Shown here one piece after another: positions 2,785-15,876 of a DNA stretch of 44,923 bases. Positions within the stretch are counted from its first letter, which is position 1. Every line of letters begins with the position of its first letter. The DNA lies in the IMG/VR virus record IMGVR_UViG_3300008261_000182, positions 1 through 44,923 of that record; one strand, given 5' to 3'. The position numbers were made by a program, and so were the translations under genes. The notes under the pieces were generated by a model. It was not told the DNA's origin, did no database searches, and saw only the letters and a list, made by a program, of their open reading frames with translations. The DNA comes from a virus.

Positions 2785-5700
2785 TTGTTTCTTAGTTTAT
2801 CTATTTCTTGTTTGAGTTCCTTAATTGCTGCAATTAGTATAGGGGTGAGCTTAGAGTAGTCTACCTCTTGCATTTCTGCTCCATCCTTTTCTCCTGTCAC
2901 AAGATATGGAAGTATCTCCTGTATCTCGTGTGCTATGAATCCATCCTGTACAGTCTTAGAATTTTTGTACTTAAAGTTAACAGGATTTAATTTCATTACT
3001 TTCTCTAGTGGATTATCAATAGCTCTTACTTGCTCTTTCAATCTGTAGTCAGAAGAAGTATTGTATGCAGTATTTGACCCATCAGTTGAGATTGACCCAA
3101 CGAATCCACCATTGTAACTGAATCTTATGATAGACCCTGTTACTCCACTTAATCCTACTACCATTGCTGTAGATGTACTGCTCTTTATAAACTGAGCATT
3201 ACCTACAAGATTTAGTGTATATCCTGCATCCGTTGTGGTTCCAATTAGTACGTTGCCGCTTGTAGGAATAATAGTCATTGCTGTTAGAGCGTAACTAGAT
3301 ATAGAAAAATTGCCACTACTAGCTTGTCTTCCAACACTCCAATAAGGAGTTCCTGCATCTCCAAAAGCTATAGTTGCTGCTGAGCCAAATGCTACTCCTA
3401 CACGTATTGTACTATTAACATTTAATTCAGAGCCTAAATTAGTTGTCGTTCCAATCAGCACGTTTCCGCCTGAGGTGATGCGCATTCGTTCAGCACTTGC
3501 TGATCCATTCCATGTATGAAACTGTAAATTAGCTGCCCCATCCCCTGCGTTTTCGTTTACTGCTAATATTCTAGCATTTCTTGTGCCTGCTCCACTTGCA
3601 CCCGCATCTGTTAAAAATGAAATTTCAGCTGTATTTCCTAAAGTGGAGGATGCAGGGTTATCAATTACAACTTGACCACCTACTCCTCCAGCTGAAGATC
3701 TGGCTACATGGAATATTGCATCTGGACTAGTGGTACCTATACCAACATTACCACCTGAGGTGATGCGCATTCTTATAGAGCCACTAGTTTCAAATGTTTG
3801 GTGATTGTAATTTGAAAATAATAAGGGAGAACTATTCCAAGTTCTAATAACTCCAGTAGTTCCATCATAACCAATTTGTAAAGACCCAACGCTTGTAGTA
3901 GTAGGATTTGATAATCCTGTGCTAGTTATGCCTCCAGCTACATTTAATTGGTCAATTGGGTCATTTGTTCCTATACCAATTCTACCTGTAAAAGTAATTC
4001 TCATCCTCTCAGTACCAGCCATTGGATAAACATCTCCTGCGCTATATACTGTTGGTGATGTGTGGAATGTAATCCCTTCTGAATAGTACATCTTAATCAT
4101 AGAGGTGTACCATCCACTATTAACCACGTTCACTTGATTAGCTACAGAAGCACTTGCACGTACATTGTGTCCAAGTATTCCCATTGCTCCTGATATTGTC
4201 TGACTATAGAAATTGTAATCTGAAATATTTAACCCAACATGACCAAGGGTTAAAGTATTAGCATATACATTACCATTAACATTTAGCTTAAAGCCTGAGT
4301 CCGTTGTCGTTCCAATCAGCACGTTGCCTCCGCTTTGGTTTAAAACTAAAGGTCTAAATGCAACATTTTGTTCTACTGCTTGAATCCTTCCATATCCATC
4401 TGAATGATATCCTAAAATTAATTGTTGATTTGTATTTGATGCCCTTCTTATATTAAATTGCTCGTTTCCAGAGTCTGCGGTTATTGTAATTCTTCCACCT
4501 GTATCTAAAGTACTTGAGAAGGTAGCAGCTCCAGCATATAATCCTGCGTACGCATTTCCATCTGTTAATAAAGTAAAAGATGTTGCATTATCAGAACCAT
4601 ATTGTATCCTCCTATATCCCGCAATACTGCCTAATCCTAATCCATTTGTATCATTACTTCTAATCGTTCCGTTTACGTTTAGTTTTGCTCCGTTGTCCGT
4701 TGTAGTTCCAATTAGCACGTTGCCGCCTGAGGTAATACGCATTCGTTCTGAGCTACCACCTCTAAATATTTGAGCGCCTGAATTTTCAATTGCAAAGTCA
4801 ACGCCTCCTGTTCCAAGTGTATATAAATAAGTCAAGTTGGCTCCGCTTGTTGATAATACAAGTGAGGAACCGCTTCCGTTAATATGTAAACCAGTATACC
4901 CACCGCCAGCAACTTGCGGAGAAGTTGTCCCAATCCCAACGTTGCCTGTGTTTGTCACAACTAATTTATTAGAAAAACCACCGCTTGGAGTTTGAACTTG
5001 AAAATCTCCATTGTTACCACCTAGAAAAACAGAATTTCCAGAGGCATCCAATAGTTGCATAAATACCCCATTACTCCCAGTTCTTTGCACTACTAAATTA
5101 GTAGAACCTGACGCACTAAACCGCCCAGTTCCGTTAACATCTAACTTAAAGCCAGCGTCTGTGGTTGTTCCAATTGCTACATTTCCACTAGGATTAATTA
5201 TGATATCATTCAAAGAAGCATCTCTACCAACTCTAATTCCAACAACACTTGAGTTTGAACCAAAGGTAGCATATCCTCCAGTTAAATTCATTAAAGCACT
5301 ACCGCCTTGTACTTCAGTAGAACTATATATTTTACCGTTTACATCTAATTTAAAACTTGGCGAACTTGTCCCAATCCCAATGTTGCCTCCGCTGGTAATG
5401 CGCATTCGTTCGGTGTCGTTGGTAATAAATCTAAAGTAATGGTTTGTTGTAGTTCCAACAAGTGAGCCGATACCATCATAGCCAAGAAAAGTTCTTACTC
5501 CACCATCAACTTGAGTAATATAACCACCACTAACCTGCAATCGTTGACCAATATCCGTTGTTGTTCCGACAAGTAGGTTGCCGCCGCTGGTTAGGGTCAT
5601 TGATGGAGTTGAAAACCCAATCTGAAATGATATATTTTGAGGTGAACGTAGGGTTAAAATATTACTACTTGAAGAAGCAAATATTCCACTTGCATAATTT

Positions 5701-11566: not shown

Positions 11567-11754
11567 GAAGCAAACTTGTCATAGTAGATAAACTCGCCAT
11601 CGTTGACCGACTTAACATCGTCACCAACCTTGACAATTTCACCTATACCATAGCGCATTTTATTTTTGTCATCAGCTGACAGTAGAAGCCCGACTTGTGT
11701 TCGGGCTTCTTTTTCTATTTTTCTGATTACCAGATACTTACCTATTGGTCTCAT
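11443..11754 (-). CDS. groES: Phage GroES-like co-chaperonin
   Basis: 103 residues. It starts MRPIGKYLVIRKIEKEARTQ (GroES-type RP....V.V....E....GL.L), then GEIVKVGDDVKSVNDGEFIY (core strands with the G.IV.VG and GD..Y motifs), a region equivalent to the roof or mobile segment, and the final strand VLTVILERDVVVVL. About 15 residues beyond the usual GroES end (ESPDVFGFTALLPFSVIS) extend into the winged-helix gene on the other strand. Its ATG lies inside the 3' end of groEL (17-nt overlap), so it is coupled to and follows groEL. It would cap the GroEL-like ring. Confidence 0.82.
   Translation of the reverse strand: MRPIGKYLVIRKIEKEARTQVGLLLSADDKNKMRYGIGEIVKVGDDVKSVNDGEFIYYDKFASHEMIIAGEVLTVILERDVVVVLESPDVFGFTALLPFSVIS
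11684..11716 (+). terminator. Intrinsic terminator inside groES, for the plus-strand winged-helix gene
   Basis: AGAAGCCCGA, a 7-nt loop, then TCGGGCTTCT form a perfect 10-bp stem, followed by TTTTCTATTTTT on the plus strand. It lies about 118 nt past the winged-helix stop and within codons 13-24 of groES, where on the minus strand it is read as KEARTQVGLL. There is no T-tract on the minus side, so it should act on plus-strand RNA only. Confidence 0.8.
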
Positions 11755-13294
11755 TTGCGATTATTGCGTTTGTAGTTAAAATTGTAGTCGCCACGGAGAT
11801 GGCGTTTTTCAAAGCGGTCTTTGTAACCTTAAGTGGATCAACAATACCCATGTCGAACATGTTACCGATCTCGTTGGTCTTAACATTAATACCCTCGTTA
11901 CCTGACGTATCTCGAAGCATCCCAAGGATAAACTCGCTATCTAGGTCCGCATTTTTAATAATTTGGTTGAACGGAGCCTGGATTGCATTCACAAAGCACT
12001 CAACAACCCTGTTGTTATAGCTTTCATTCAGCAGCTGCTGACCGATTCGGTATAGAGCGAGACCCCCACCTGCCACAATGCCTTCCTCCATGGCTGACTG
12101 CACCGCACAGACTGAGTCATCGACCCGATCGTACAACTCCTTTTGCTCAACGTCCGAGTTACCGCCCACGTGGATGATACCAACACCGCCAGTCAAGTAC
12201 GAAATGCGCTCCTTGATGAAGTCTCTGTCCTGCTTTTTGTTCGCCTGGTCGTGCGCCTGCTTCAACTCGCTCACCAAAATCTCCAACGCCTCTGTGTTGT
12301 CGGTCTTTGGATCTGGAACCAAGACAGTCTTGTCTCTCGATACCACTACTTTTGACGCGAAGCCAAGGTCATCGAAGCCAATTAGTGCAGTGTCATCGCC
12401 TGACATCTGGCTGAAGAACCGTCCGCCTGTCGCAACCGCAAGGTCTTGCATCAACTCGTGCTGCTTGTAGCCAAACTGAGGTGGCTCAACGATGCAGTAC
12501 TTCAAGTTATTCTTCAACACATTCGCTGCGATCGTATTTGTAAAGTTCGCAGAGCATGGTGCAACGATCAACAAAGGCTTCCGACTGTCAATCACTGGCG
12601 CAAGTGCGTTCTGGATCTGTGTGATGCTCGACAGCTCGATGTCTGTCATCAAGATGTAGCAGTCCTCAGCCACGTACTCGTCATTCTTCTGGTTGTTCAC
12701 GAACAATTTGTTCGTATACCCACGATCCATGCGGATACCCTTGATTACCTCAGCGTAGGTCTCCGTAGTCATCGACTTCTCAACCGTCACCACACCGTTC
12801 TTCCCGATCTTCTTGTACGTGTCAGCGATTAGCTTCCCAATATGTCTGTCGTTGTTGGCAGAAATTGTCGCAATGTCCTCGATCCAACGCTTAGTTGTCC
12901 GAACTGCCATCTTGGCAAGCAAGCCCTCAGTCCTCTCTGACAGCTCGTTGATCTTCTTGACAGTCCCCCAGTCAGCGTTCAACGCCATCCCACCCTCAAC
13001 TAGGGCCTCGGTTATCACCACCGCAGTGGTTGTCCCATCGCCTGCCGTCATCGCAGTCCTCTCACTGGCCTCACGAACGATTCGAACAGCCATGTTCTCC
13101 ACTGGATCGTTCAAGTGAATGCTCTTCGCAACTGTAACACCGTCCTTTGTGATTGTTAGACCACGAGTGTGACTCGGAGAGTCAATGATCACCGTCTTAC
13201 CACTCGGTCCAAGAGTGCTCTTCACAGCACTCGACATGGTCTTGACACCACGTAGTAGTTTGTCACGACCTTCTTGGTCAAAGTAAACTTCCAT
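11738..13294 (-). CDS. groEL: Phage GroEL-like chaperonin
   Basis: 518 residues, close to bacterial GroEL (about 545) but without a Gly-Gly-Met tail. ATPase signatures are intact: STLGPSGKTVIID (27-39), KDGVTVAK (50-57), AGDGTTTA (84-91), ISANND, EEGIVAGGGLAL (near 400) and MGIVDPLKVTKTAL (482-495) with the nucleotide-contacting Asp. The apical domain is divergent, as expected if the substrate set differs. The gene is visibly richer in G+C than its neighbours (about half G+C in many lines), suggesting strong expression or separate origin. It precedes groES on its strand, the reverse of the usual bacterial order. Confidence 0.93.
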   Translation of the reverse strand: MEVYFDQEGRDKLLRGVKTMSSAVKSTLGPSGKTVIIDSPSHTRGLTITKDGVTVAKSIHLNDPVENMAVRIVREASERTAMTAGDGTTTAVVITEALVEGGMALNADWGTVKKINELSERTEGLLAKMAVRTTKRWIEDIATISANNDRHIGKLIADTYKKIGKNGVVTVEKSMTTETYAEVIKGIRMDRGYTNKLFVNNQKNDEYVAEDCYILMTDIELSSITQIQNALAPVIDSRKPLLIVAPCSANFTNTIAANVLKNNLKYCIVEPPQFGYKQHELMQDLAVATGGRFFSQMSGDDTALIGFDDLGFASKVVVSRDKTVLVPDPKTDNTEALEILVSELKQAHDQANKKQDRDFIKERISYLTGGVGIIHVGGNSDVEQKELYDRVDDSVCAVQSAMEEGIVAGGGLALYRIGQQLLNESYNNRVVECFVNAIQAPFNQIIKNADLDSEFILGMLRDTSGNEGINVKTNEIGNMFDMGIVDPLKVTKTALKNAISVATTILTTNAIIANETNR

Positions 13295-14482: not shown

Positions 14483-14595
14483 CATTAGACATCGAATGAT
14501 GAATCGTAAGGTAGCATCCAATTAAGCGTTATACCTAGATGTCCAATGTATACATCCCCTACACTATGGGTGTGGCATTCGATTGCGATAGGGGA
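14483..14595 (+). ncRNA. Structured 5' leader of the early operon (two predicted hairpin domains)
   Basis: Domain 1: 14483-14493 pairs with 14538-14548 (10 of 11 bp, one A-C mismatch), and inside it AGGTA (14509) pairs with TACCT (14532). Domain 2: TCCCCTA (14555-14561) pairs with TAGGGGA (14589-14595), enclosing two small hairpins (CAC/GTG and TCG/CGA) as a three-way junction. The 27-nt tail to the first ATG begins ACAAACCTAAAC, resembling the leaders left by the two hammerhead ribozymes downstream. It may be a regulatory RNA or another ribozyme; I match it to no known class. Confidence 0.45.
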
Positions 14596-14622
14596 CAAAC
14601 CTAAACTTAAACAACAAAAAAC

Positions 14623-14832
14623 ATGACAACTTTAAACAATGTAACAAGTATTGAAGAGTTAAAAACTTTTGTTTTATCATCTGATTACTTAACGAGTGTA
14701 GTAGGAATCGAAAGTGATTGCACAAGAGATGAGTTCATAAAGGCAGTTGCAGGACTTAAAAAAGAGTTAGCAATCCAATATAAGATGAGAGACCTTTGGT
14801 TTGAGGAATATGAAAGAACTAACAAATTTTAA
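14623..14832 (+). CDS. Small early protein, paralogue of the 15017 gene
   Basis: 69 residues; first gene of the early arm, preceded by an A-rich leader ending AACAAAAAACATG without a Shine-Dalgarno. The segment LTSVVGIESDCTRDEFIKAV aligns with LTFLVGLDSNCTNQELIKAI of the gene at 15017, so the two are paralogues. Predicted mostly helical with one conserved Cys. Function unknown; the position suggests an early host-takeover protein. Confidence 0.65.
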   Translation: MTTLNNVTSIEELKTFVLSSDYLTSVVGIESDCTRDEFIKAVAGLKKELAIQYKMRDLWFEEYERTNKF

Positions 14833-14857: not shown

Positions 14858-14880
14858 GCCCCCTCACGGGGGCTTTACTT
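14858..14880 (+). terminator. GC hairpin with T-rich tail after the first early gene (terminator or attenuator)
   Basis: GCCCCC, loop TCAC, GGGGGC (14858-14873) followed by TTTACTT on the plus strand, 26 nt after the stop at 14832. A 6-bp all-GC stem with a weak T-tract suggests partial termination, giving more of the first product than of downstream genes. Confidence 0.6.
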
Positions 14881-14894
14881 TAAACTAAAAAATC

Positions 14895-14999
14895 ATGAGC
14901 GATAACACAAAATCATGGGTAATCACAATTGTAATCTTAGCCATTGCAATCACAATTGGTACTTTCTTCGGAATTGAATTAGAAAAAACTATCTGGTAA
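14895..14999 (+). CDS. 34-residue single-span membrane peptide
   Basis: MSDNTKSWVITIVILAIAIT then IGTFFGIELEKTIW: a short polar start, one hydrophobic span (about 8-26) and a charged end. The start context AAAAATCATG matches other starts in this arm. One of several tiny membrane peptides here. Function unknown. Confidence 0.55.
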   Translation: MSDNTKSWVITIVILAIAITIGTFFGIELEKTIW

Positions 15000-15016
15000 T
15001 CTAAACAAACAAAATC

Positions 15017-15226
15017 ATGAATACAATACAAGAAGTTAGAAATCAAGTTTTTTCTTGTGAAAGGCTAACATTTTTAGTTGGATTGGACTCTAATTGTACA
15101 AATCAAGAGTTAATAAAAGCGATAGCCAATCTAGACCAAGAGATAGGCTTTAGAGACCAAGTTATTTCAATGACTATTAAAATTATTTTGAACCACATGG
15201 AAAAAAACGAACCATTACCTTGGTAA
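15017..15226 (+). CDS. Small early protein, paralogue of the 14623 gene
   Basis: 69 residues, sharing the VGLDSNCT.QELIKAIANL core with the 14623 product; a helical, charged C-terminal third (MTIKIILNHMEKNEPLPW) differs. Start context AACAAAATCATG. A hammerhead ribozyme begins 6 nt after its stop, so self-cleavage would leave this ORF at the 3' end of an RNA fragment carrying most of the ribozyme. Confidence 0.65.
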   Translation: MNTIQEVRNQVFSCERLTFLVGLDSNCTNQELIKAIANLDQEIGFRDQVISMTIKIILNHMEKNEPLPW

Positions 15227-15232
15227 ATTAAA

Positions 15233-15282
15233 GGTTAACTGATGAGGATTTAATATCCGAAACGCCTTCGGGCGTCTTAACC
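15233..15282 (+). ncRNA. Type I hammerhead ribozyme, copy 1
   Basis: The complete core is present: CTGATGA (15239-15245), GAAA (15259-15262) and cleavage triplet GTC (15274-15276). Helix I: GGTTAA (15233-15238) with TTAACC (15277-15282), 6 bp. Helix II: GGAT/ATCC with a 5-nt loop. Helix III: CGCC/GGCG closed by a TTCG tetraloop, plus the A-U pair beside the triplet. The open end is at helix I (type I). Cleavage is expected after C15276. It lies between the stop at 15226 and the ATG at 15303, so it would cut the polycistronic early mRNA between these genes. Confidence 0.95.
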
Positions 15283-15302
15283 AAAACCTAAACACACACA
15301 TC

Positions 15303-15509
15303 ATGGAAACTTTAGAATTCACTTTGTCCCGAGTAATTTTCCTAGCAAAAAACTATGGCGGAAGTCAGCCTAGTTTTAGAATTTCTAAATGCAAAAATCA
15401 TGTAGAAATAACAGATTCATCCTCTGGATTTTTAAAGATTTTAATGTCGGATGATAAGGTCATGGCACACTTTCATGGTGGAGTAATACATGTTGAATAT
15501 TTCAAATAA
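15303..15509 (+). CDS. Small hypothetical protein between two hammerhead ribozymes
   Basis: 68 residues with alternating strand-like segments (FRISKCKNHVEITDSSSGFL, KVMAHFHGGVIHVEYF). No family recognised. The start (CACACATCATGG) is 26 nt past the predicted cut of ribozyme copy 1, and ribozyme copy 2 begins 2 nt after its stop. Self-cleavage would release this ORF on its own about 283-nt RNA with a short leader. Confidence 0.65.
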   Translation: METLEFTLSRVIFLAKNYGGSQPSFRISKCKNHVEITDSSSGFLKILMSDDKVMAHFHGGVIHVEYFK

Positions 15510-15510
15510 C

Positions 15511-15566
15511 AGGTTAACTGACGAGTCCTAAAAGGACGAAACCAGCCTACGGGTTGGTCTTAACCT
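15511..15566 (+). ncRNA. Type I hammerhead ribozyme, copy 2
   Basis: Core CTGACGA (15518-15524), GAAA (15538-15541), triplet GTC (15557-15559). Helix I: AGGTTAA (15511-15517) with TTAACCT (15560-15566), 7 perfect bp. Helix II: GTCC/GGAC with loop TAAAA. Helix III: CCAGCC/GGTTGG with one G-U pair and loop TACG, plus the A-U pair at the triplet. Cleavage is expected after C15559, 20 nt before the ATG at 15580. Helix I is the same sequence as in copy 1, while helices II and III differ in sequence yet keep pairing, which is covariation-like support. Confidence 0.95.
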
Positions 15567-15579
15567 AAACAAATTAATC

Positions 15580-15876
15580 ATGGAAAATCAAAAATCTTTT
15601 ACCTACAATGAGGCGGTTGGAAAGTCAATTGTTTGGGCATCTTACGCTCATAACTTCTCAGAAGAACGAATCAAAGAAATTGGATACAATCCAAGCAATG
15701 ACTTGTCTTATATTGAACTTGAAAATGGCATTTTTATTTGCTCAAGTAGTGGGCGTGATGCTTTTTATCAGATTAGAGATAAAAAGGAATTGATGTTTTC
15801 TCAATATTCAACGAATACATGGGAAGGATGGAGAAGGATTACTGAATTAAATAATTTCTTACTAAACGAATTTTAA
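15580..15876 (+). CDS. Small early hypothetical protein with ribozyme-derived leader
   Basis: 98 residues: an N-terminal AVGKSIVWASYAHNFSEERI, a strand-rich middle (LSYIELENGIFICSSSGRDA) and a WEGWRRITELNNFLLNEF helix at the end. Not recognised. Start context TTAATCATGG. After hammerhead cleavage its mRNA would begin TTAACCTAAAC, close to the leader of the gene at 15303. Confidence 0.65.
   Translation: MENQKSFTYNEAVGKSIVWASYAHNFSEERIKEIGYNPSNDLSYIELENGIFICSSSGRDAFYQIRDKKELMFSQYSTNTWEGWRRITELNNFLLNEF

Follow-up and report, generated by a model that had tools for sequence, protein, structure and literature searches.

Clusters of hammerhead ribozymes flanking genes in prophages were described in 2011 by Perreault et al., who proposed that they process transcripts into gene-length mRNAs (PMC3088659). 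They demonstrated cleavage of three clusters in vitro and of one cluster in E. coli. Several closely spaced hammerheads, described as types I, II and III, surround individual phage genes or short runs of them, and the passages available mention neither a constant spacing to start codons nor an overlap with stop codons. A 2017 review regarded the purpose of prokaryotic hammerheads as an open question (PMC6155905), and a review of 2023 still described their association with genes as unexplained (PMC10085705). The type III hammerheads of retrozymes and viroids have the same catalytic core as the ribozymes analyzed here and likewise come in paired copies, but their open helix is stem III rather than stem I, and the present locus shows no evidence of circles or reverse transcription.

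Here we examine two hammerheads in a phage genome, the whole 44,923-base record IMGVR_UViG_3300008261_000182 (positions 1 to 44,923; hereafter, the window). They resemble the Perreault clusters in the close spacing around a single gene and differ from them in that they belong to a family with one compact type I layout and a 6-bp stem I, which is found in many phages. The first-pass annotation set a processing site inside an operon apart from what was known of phage hammerheads. This contrast was too strong: gene-flanking phage hammerheads with a proposed role in mRNA processing were already reported in 2011 (PMC3088659). What is added here is the constant geometry, the stop codons embedded in the ribozymes and a blind spot of Rfam. 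In the open-licence literature, we found no description of the fixed stop-ribozyme-leader-ATG layout with embedded stops, or of the gap in Rfam, which is weak evidence of absence.

Gene context of the ribozymes

The 805-aa primase/helicase encoded in the window has its closest homolog, at 57% identity, in a Caudoviricetes genome from Manatee Spring; the next closest come from phages of Flavobacterium, Polaribacter and Maribacter, which points to a host probably within the Bacteroidota. At the DNA level, 12 kb of the window yielded no match among annotated phages. A block of small genes runs rightward from about position 14623, with replication genes further in, and the tail and head genes are oriented leftward. 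Around the ribozymes, mechanical, uncurated ORF calls (longest ATG ORF) on the plus strand give a 69-aa ORF upstream of copy 1 (15017-15226), a 68-aa ORF without an assigned function between the two ribozymes (15303-15509) and a 98-aa ORF downstream of copy 2 (15580-15876); no PHROG was assigned to the small proteins flanking the ribozymes. A terminator-like hairpin, GCCCCC-UCAC-GGGGGC, recognizable in the sequence and its fold (14858-14873, plus strand), precedes a tiny ORF at 14895.

The 69-aa ORFs at 14623-14832 and 15017-15226 look, by eye, like diverged tandem copies that share VG-x-(E/D)S-x-CT and IKA stretches. A phage-encoded GroEL-like chaperonin (11738-13294, minus strand; PHROG 5725, E 6e-131) adjoins the small-gene block in the window and also in MW202828.

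In a near relative, locus L121, the ribozyme-ORF-ribozyme block recurs with 97% identity at the DNA level. Positions 14873-15019 and 15232-15586 of the window match L121 4467-4613 and 4930-5282, respectively, and the genes outside these blocks are unrelated; between these two genomes, small genes appear to be swapped as blocks bounded by ribozyme or leader sequences. At the junction where the window has the terminator-like hairpin, L121 carries a hammerhead, in line with a role of the ribozyme as a maker of 3' ends.

Structure of the two hammerheads

Copy 1 occupies positions 15233-15282 of the plus strand, and every element of the complete type I hammerhead that the first-pass annotation had listed there is present in the sequence, with all three helices confirmed by position. 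The 6-bp stem I is formed by GGTTAA (15233-15238) and TTAACC (15277-15282), and the core consists of CTGATGA (15239-15245) and GAA (15259-15261). Stem II pairs GGAT (15246-15249) with ATCC (15255-15258) over 4 bp and is closed by the loop TTAAT, and stem III comprises A15262-T15275 and four further pairs (15263-15266 with 15271-15274) closed by TTCG. Position C17 is C15276, and by the hammerhead consensus the predicted cleavage site is 15276/15277, where the cut would leave a 2',3'-cyclic phosphate and a 5'-OH. The spacing also agrees with the earlier reading: 6 nt separate the upstream stop codon (TAA, 15224-15226) from stem I, and the predicted cut lies 26 nt before the next ATG, at 15303. 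The downstream RNA would thus begin with a 26-nt A-rich leader (15277-15302), against a family median of 22-24 nt.

Copy 2 (15512-15565, plus strand) starts 2 nt after the TAA stop codon of the 68-aa ORF. Its C17 is C15559, with the predicted cut at 15559/15560, which would place a 20-nt leader (15560-15579) on the next RNA before the ATG at 15580. Stem I reaches 7 bp through A15511-U15566, and loop II is atypical (UAAAA), with L121 differing in this loop. In both copies, the core residues C3 U4 G5 A6 N7 G8 A9, G12 A13 A14, the A15.1-U16.1 pair and H17 are intact, and both are of the type I permutation, in which the ends lie in stem I and stems II and III are closed by loops.

Folded alone, copy 1 adopts exactly the hammerhead as its minimum-energy structure. 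If the folded RNA extends through the leader to the AUG, a competing structure is 2 kcal/mol more stable and the probability of stem I falls to 0.05; for an RNA ending about 16 nt past the cut, this probability is 0.65. Because the competing fold arises once the AUG has been transcribed, copy 1 probably has to cut early, before that fold can form, and its cutting may be partial given the slightly greater stability of the alternative. For copy 2 with its leader up to the AUG, the modelled probability of stem I is 0.92.

A compact type I family below the Rfam threshold

The Rfam covariance search that the first-pass annotation proposed as a check gave scores below gathering, an outcome that, taken formally, counts against the ribozymes. 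With RF00163 (Hammerhead_1), which has the same core and an open stem I as in the window copies, copy 2 aligns along the full model but, at 30.5 bits, stays under the gathering threshold of 34, and no match is reported for copy 1 at E<=10. This shortfall is a gap in model coverage for a compact subgroup and no refutation of the two copies, because the same model misses their relatives: 44 hammerheads of the same kind in 15 other loci have no gathering-level Rfam hammerhead match. The RAGATH-1 hammerhead (RF03152) matches copy 2 weakly over its full length (25.6 bits), far below its gathering score of 56.3, and has an extra 5' hairpin and a long stem III, both of which copy 2 lacks. Matches in the window to Trp_leader and several snoRNAs were below threshold and were taken as chance. 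With a family covariance model built from 33 aligned rows from other phages, none from the window or its near relative, copy 1 scores 72.9 bits (E 1.4e-15) and copy 2 57.8 bits (E 7e-12).

The window contains two matches to the GTC-bearing core pattern, compared to 0.24 expected in shuffled sequence. In a collection scan in which the core and the adjoining TTAA/TTAA were fixed and stems II and III and both loops were left free, the intact core was found in at least 119 viral stretches, whereas the same scan with a broken core (CGAAAC to CGTTAC) returned 0 viral matches. Among the matches listed, stem II had at least 4 bp in 124 of the 135 distinct sequences and stem III in 132 of 135; only the first pair of each of these stems was set by the pattern, the remaining pairs being free. 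The converse scan, with stem II fixed and stem I free, recovered stem I of at least 4 bp in 112 of 125 cases (mode 6 bp), with many different sequences. A relaxed finder run on all retrieved loci identified 316 distinct ribozymes in 238 loci and 0 with the mutated core CTCANGA.

All three helices of the family covary. For the alignment of 33 rows, the covariation score is 0.75 vs at most 0.073 for slid versions; these rows had been picked as paired, so that the evidence lies in the two-sided changes and not in the percentage of pairing. Together, the covariation, the absence of broken-core matches and the independent model scores make the type I hammerhead identity well supported at the sequence level. 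The pattern appeared in only 10 stretches across about 85,000 bacterial and archaeal genomes, including Pedobacter, Mucilaginibacter and Aquimarina, which identifies it as a phage feature. Family members are present in the cultured Methylophilales phage MEP301, Flavobacterium phage elemoC and Pelagibacter phage Jormungand.

Several features that the search did not fix are shared across the family. Stem I has exactly 6 bp in 272 of 316 ribozymes, and in these it is flanked by an A on the 5' side (232/272) and on the 3' side (226/272). The five-nucleotide loop II has the consensus U-N-A-N-U (U, A and U in 187, 171 and 187 of 195, respectively). Stem III is GC-rich (76% GC), with UNCG or GNRA in 168 of 213 four-nucleotide loops, and stem I is weak, with 35% GC across the family. 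Fast hammerhead cleavage at low Mg2+ depends on a tertiary contact of stem I with loop II. Reports on engineered hammerheads locate a tertiary contact at nucleotide 7 downstream of the cut (PMC9217987). This is where the conserved 3' A of the phage ribozymes sits, which makes a stem I-loop II contact plausible in the family.

The densest array that we found, with at least eight strong hammerhead matches, is in a 5.8-kb contig binned as Aliivibrio (L232). A separate group with the stem I CTGTCT/AGACAG (L123, L124, L134, L139, L144, L155, L177, L199 and L213) has its own conserved post-cut sequence and lies mostly 46-51 nt from an ATG or has no ATG; this group may represent a different use of the ribozyme. 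In phage elemoC (L290), a predicted opposite-strand CDS (2962-3069) covers the hammerhead at 2995-3057 and is probably an annotation artefact.

Fixed placement between stop and start codons

The family occupies a constant place between genes. The distance from the predicted cut to the ATG has a median of 22 nt (IQR 20-26) among the matches listed in the first scan and of 24 nt (IQR 21-30) in the larger set, in which an ATG follows within 80 nt in 284 of 316 cases. The leader is A-rich, with a Shine-Dalgarno (SD)-like motif in 72 of 234. On the other side, the last base of the upstream stop codon falls in the span from 10 nt 5' to 4 nt 3' of C3 in 198 of the 230 ribozymes with a clear upstream ORF, and in 156 of the 230 the stop overlaps the ribozyme itself; the overlapping stops include 60 UAA codons at the end of stem I, 42 UGA codons in the core and 14 further in, in the loop II region. 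Among the 72 distinct stem I 6-mers, 16 end in a stop codon compared to 4.5 expected, a count reached in 0 of 5000 shuffles. In phage MEP301, the annotated stop of gp02 lies inside loop II, and gp03 starts 24 nt beyond the end of the modelled ribozyme. The fixed position thus joins structure, covariation and family membership among the established features of these RNAs.

No locus had ribozymes on both strands, and all matches fell on one strand in 37 of 38 whole records, with up to eight per record. The interval between neighbouring ribozymes most frequently contains a single ORF (45 of 117 intervals) and often two or more, and 128 of 193 retrieved loci have a single ribozyme only. Many junctions in ribozyme-bearing operons are free of ribozymes; therefore, processing cannot be needed for every gene.

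A three-way-junction RNA upstream of the first small gene

Another structured RNA of about 40 nt precedes the small-gene block of the window (14556-14598, plus strand). It is a three-way junction with P1 of 6-7 bp, P2 of 3 bp, a UG linker, P3 of 3-4 bp and the hexaloop UUYGAU. All three stems covary, with P3 represented by GCA/UGC, GCC/GGC, GGUC/GACC, CCGA/UCGG, GAGG/CCUC and GAC/GUC. We found 28 distinct examples and 0 with two permuted loops that served as controls; further loci include L121 (5987-6027), L071, L104, L242, L246, L250, L260, L308, L313, L332 and L349, among others. A search against Rfam gave no match. As with the hammerheads, an ATG follows closely, and the two kinds of RNA at times share an operon; the hammerhead model detected a hammerhead in 5 of 15 searched records, all of which carry the three-way junction, and one three-way-junction locus has a twister-like match. 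Given that new ribozyme classes have been found earlier through such gene neighbourhoods (PMC10085705), the covarying three-way junction is a candidate new ribozyme or 5'-leader element.

Proposed processing at gene junctions and alternative readings

We consider it likely, judging from sequence evidence, that both copies are active type I hammerheads and cleave the polycistronic phage message between genes while it is being transcribed. The first-pass annotation placed copy 1 as a processing site inside an early polycistronic operon; given the fixed place between stop and ATG, intercistronic processing is the best reading and stands, whereas 'early' is suggested by position only, at the head of the rightward primase/helicase block. 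Each copy forms a compact intercistronic module of stop codon, ribozyme, a leader of 20-26 nt and an ATG. Cotranscriptional cleavage after C17 would fall on the gene border, and the upstream mRNA would carry the GC-rich hairpin of stem III and a 2',3'-cyclic phosphate at its 3' end, which would resemble a terminator hairpin although RNA polymerase would continue. Stem I, a weak 6-bp helix rich in A and U, would then separate, leaving a downstream mRNA with a 5'-OH and a short unstructured A-rich leader of the kind that these SD-poor genes carry anyway. We infer cleavage in the cell, the nature of the RNA ends and effects on stability and translation from the features described above.

Timing of the cut by translation would add to this mechanism. 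A ribosome finishing the upstream gene could hold the ribozyme open, so that the cut occurs only once ribosomes have cleared, coupling upstream translation to separation of the mRNAs. The overlap of the stop codon with the ribozyme in most of the family, at stem I, in the core and beyond, and the excess of stem I 6-mers ending in a stop point in this direction, but the stops in the window sit outside the ribozymes, 6 and 2 nt before them, and stop embedding may merely reflect compact genomes. We regard this reading as unlikely, and with equal doubt its generalization, a ribosome-sensing mRNA cutter in which termination times the cut and which serves as a general punctuation mark in many unrelated phages. 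Much less probable still, and in our view highly improbable, is that the paired ribozymes free the RNA 15277-15559 (283 nt, one ORF), the ends of which are joined by the ribozyme or by RtcB into a circular mRNA. Tandem copies would indeed leave a 5'-OH and a 2',3'-cyclic phosphate on the ORF-bearing middle piece, and such circles are known for retrozymes and viroids (PMC6155905), but most loci have only one ribozyme and RtcB is encoded in 1 of 38 ribozyme-bearing records, although the host could supply it. Moreover, Perreault et al. examined their clusters for spliced or circular RNAs without detecting any (PMC3088659).

The ribozyme could also serve mainly as a boundary for gene exchange between phages and not for RNA processing. 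The homology blocks shared by the window and L121 break at ribozyme/leader junctions. In the general comparison, gaps with ribozymes have about 3 times as many breaks per kb as other gaps; set against other short gene gaps, however, the difference does not reach significance (38% vs 30%, p=0.08), and conservation of the catalytic core is left unexplained, so that we rate this reading lower again than circular mRNA. Finally, it is barely credible that the two copies are inactive relics or chance matches. Both do miss the Rfam gathering threshold, but the zero broken-core matches, the covariation in three stems and the family-model scores argue against this reading.

Implications for phage gene expression

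Annotation that relies on Rfam misses the ribozymes of this compact phage subgroup. From its sequence and placement, the family most likely divides a long transcript into individual mRNAs whose ends are defined, and the fixed start-codon distance, the embedded stop codons and the family members in cultured phages make this mRNA-processing hypothesis directly testable.
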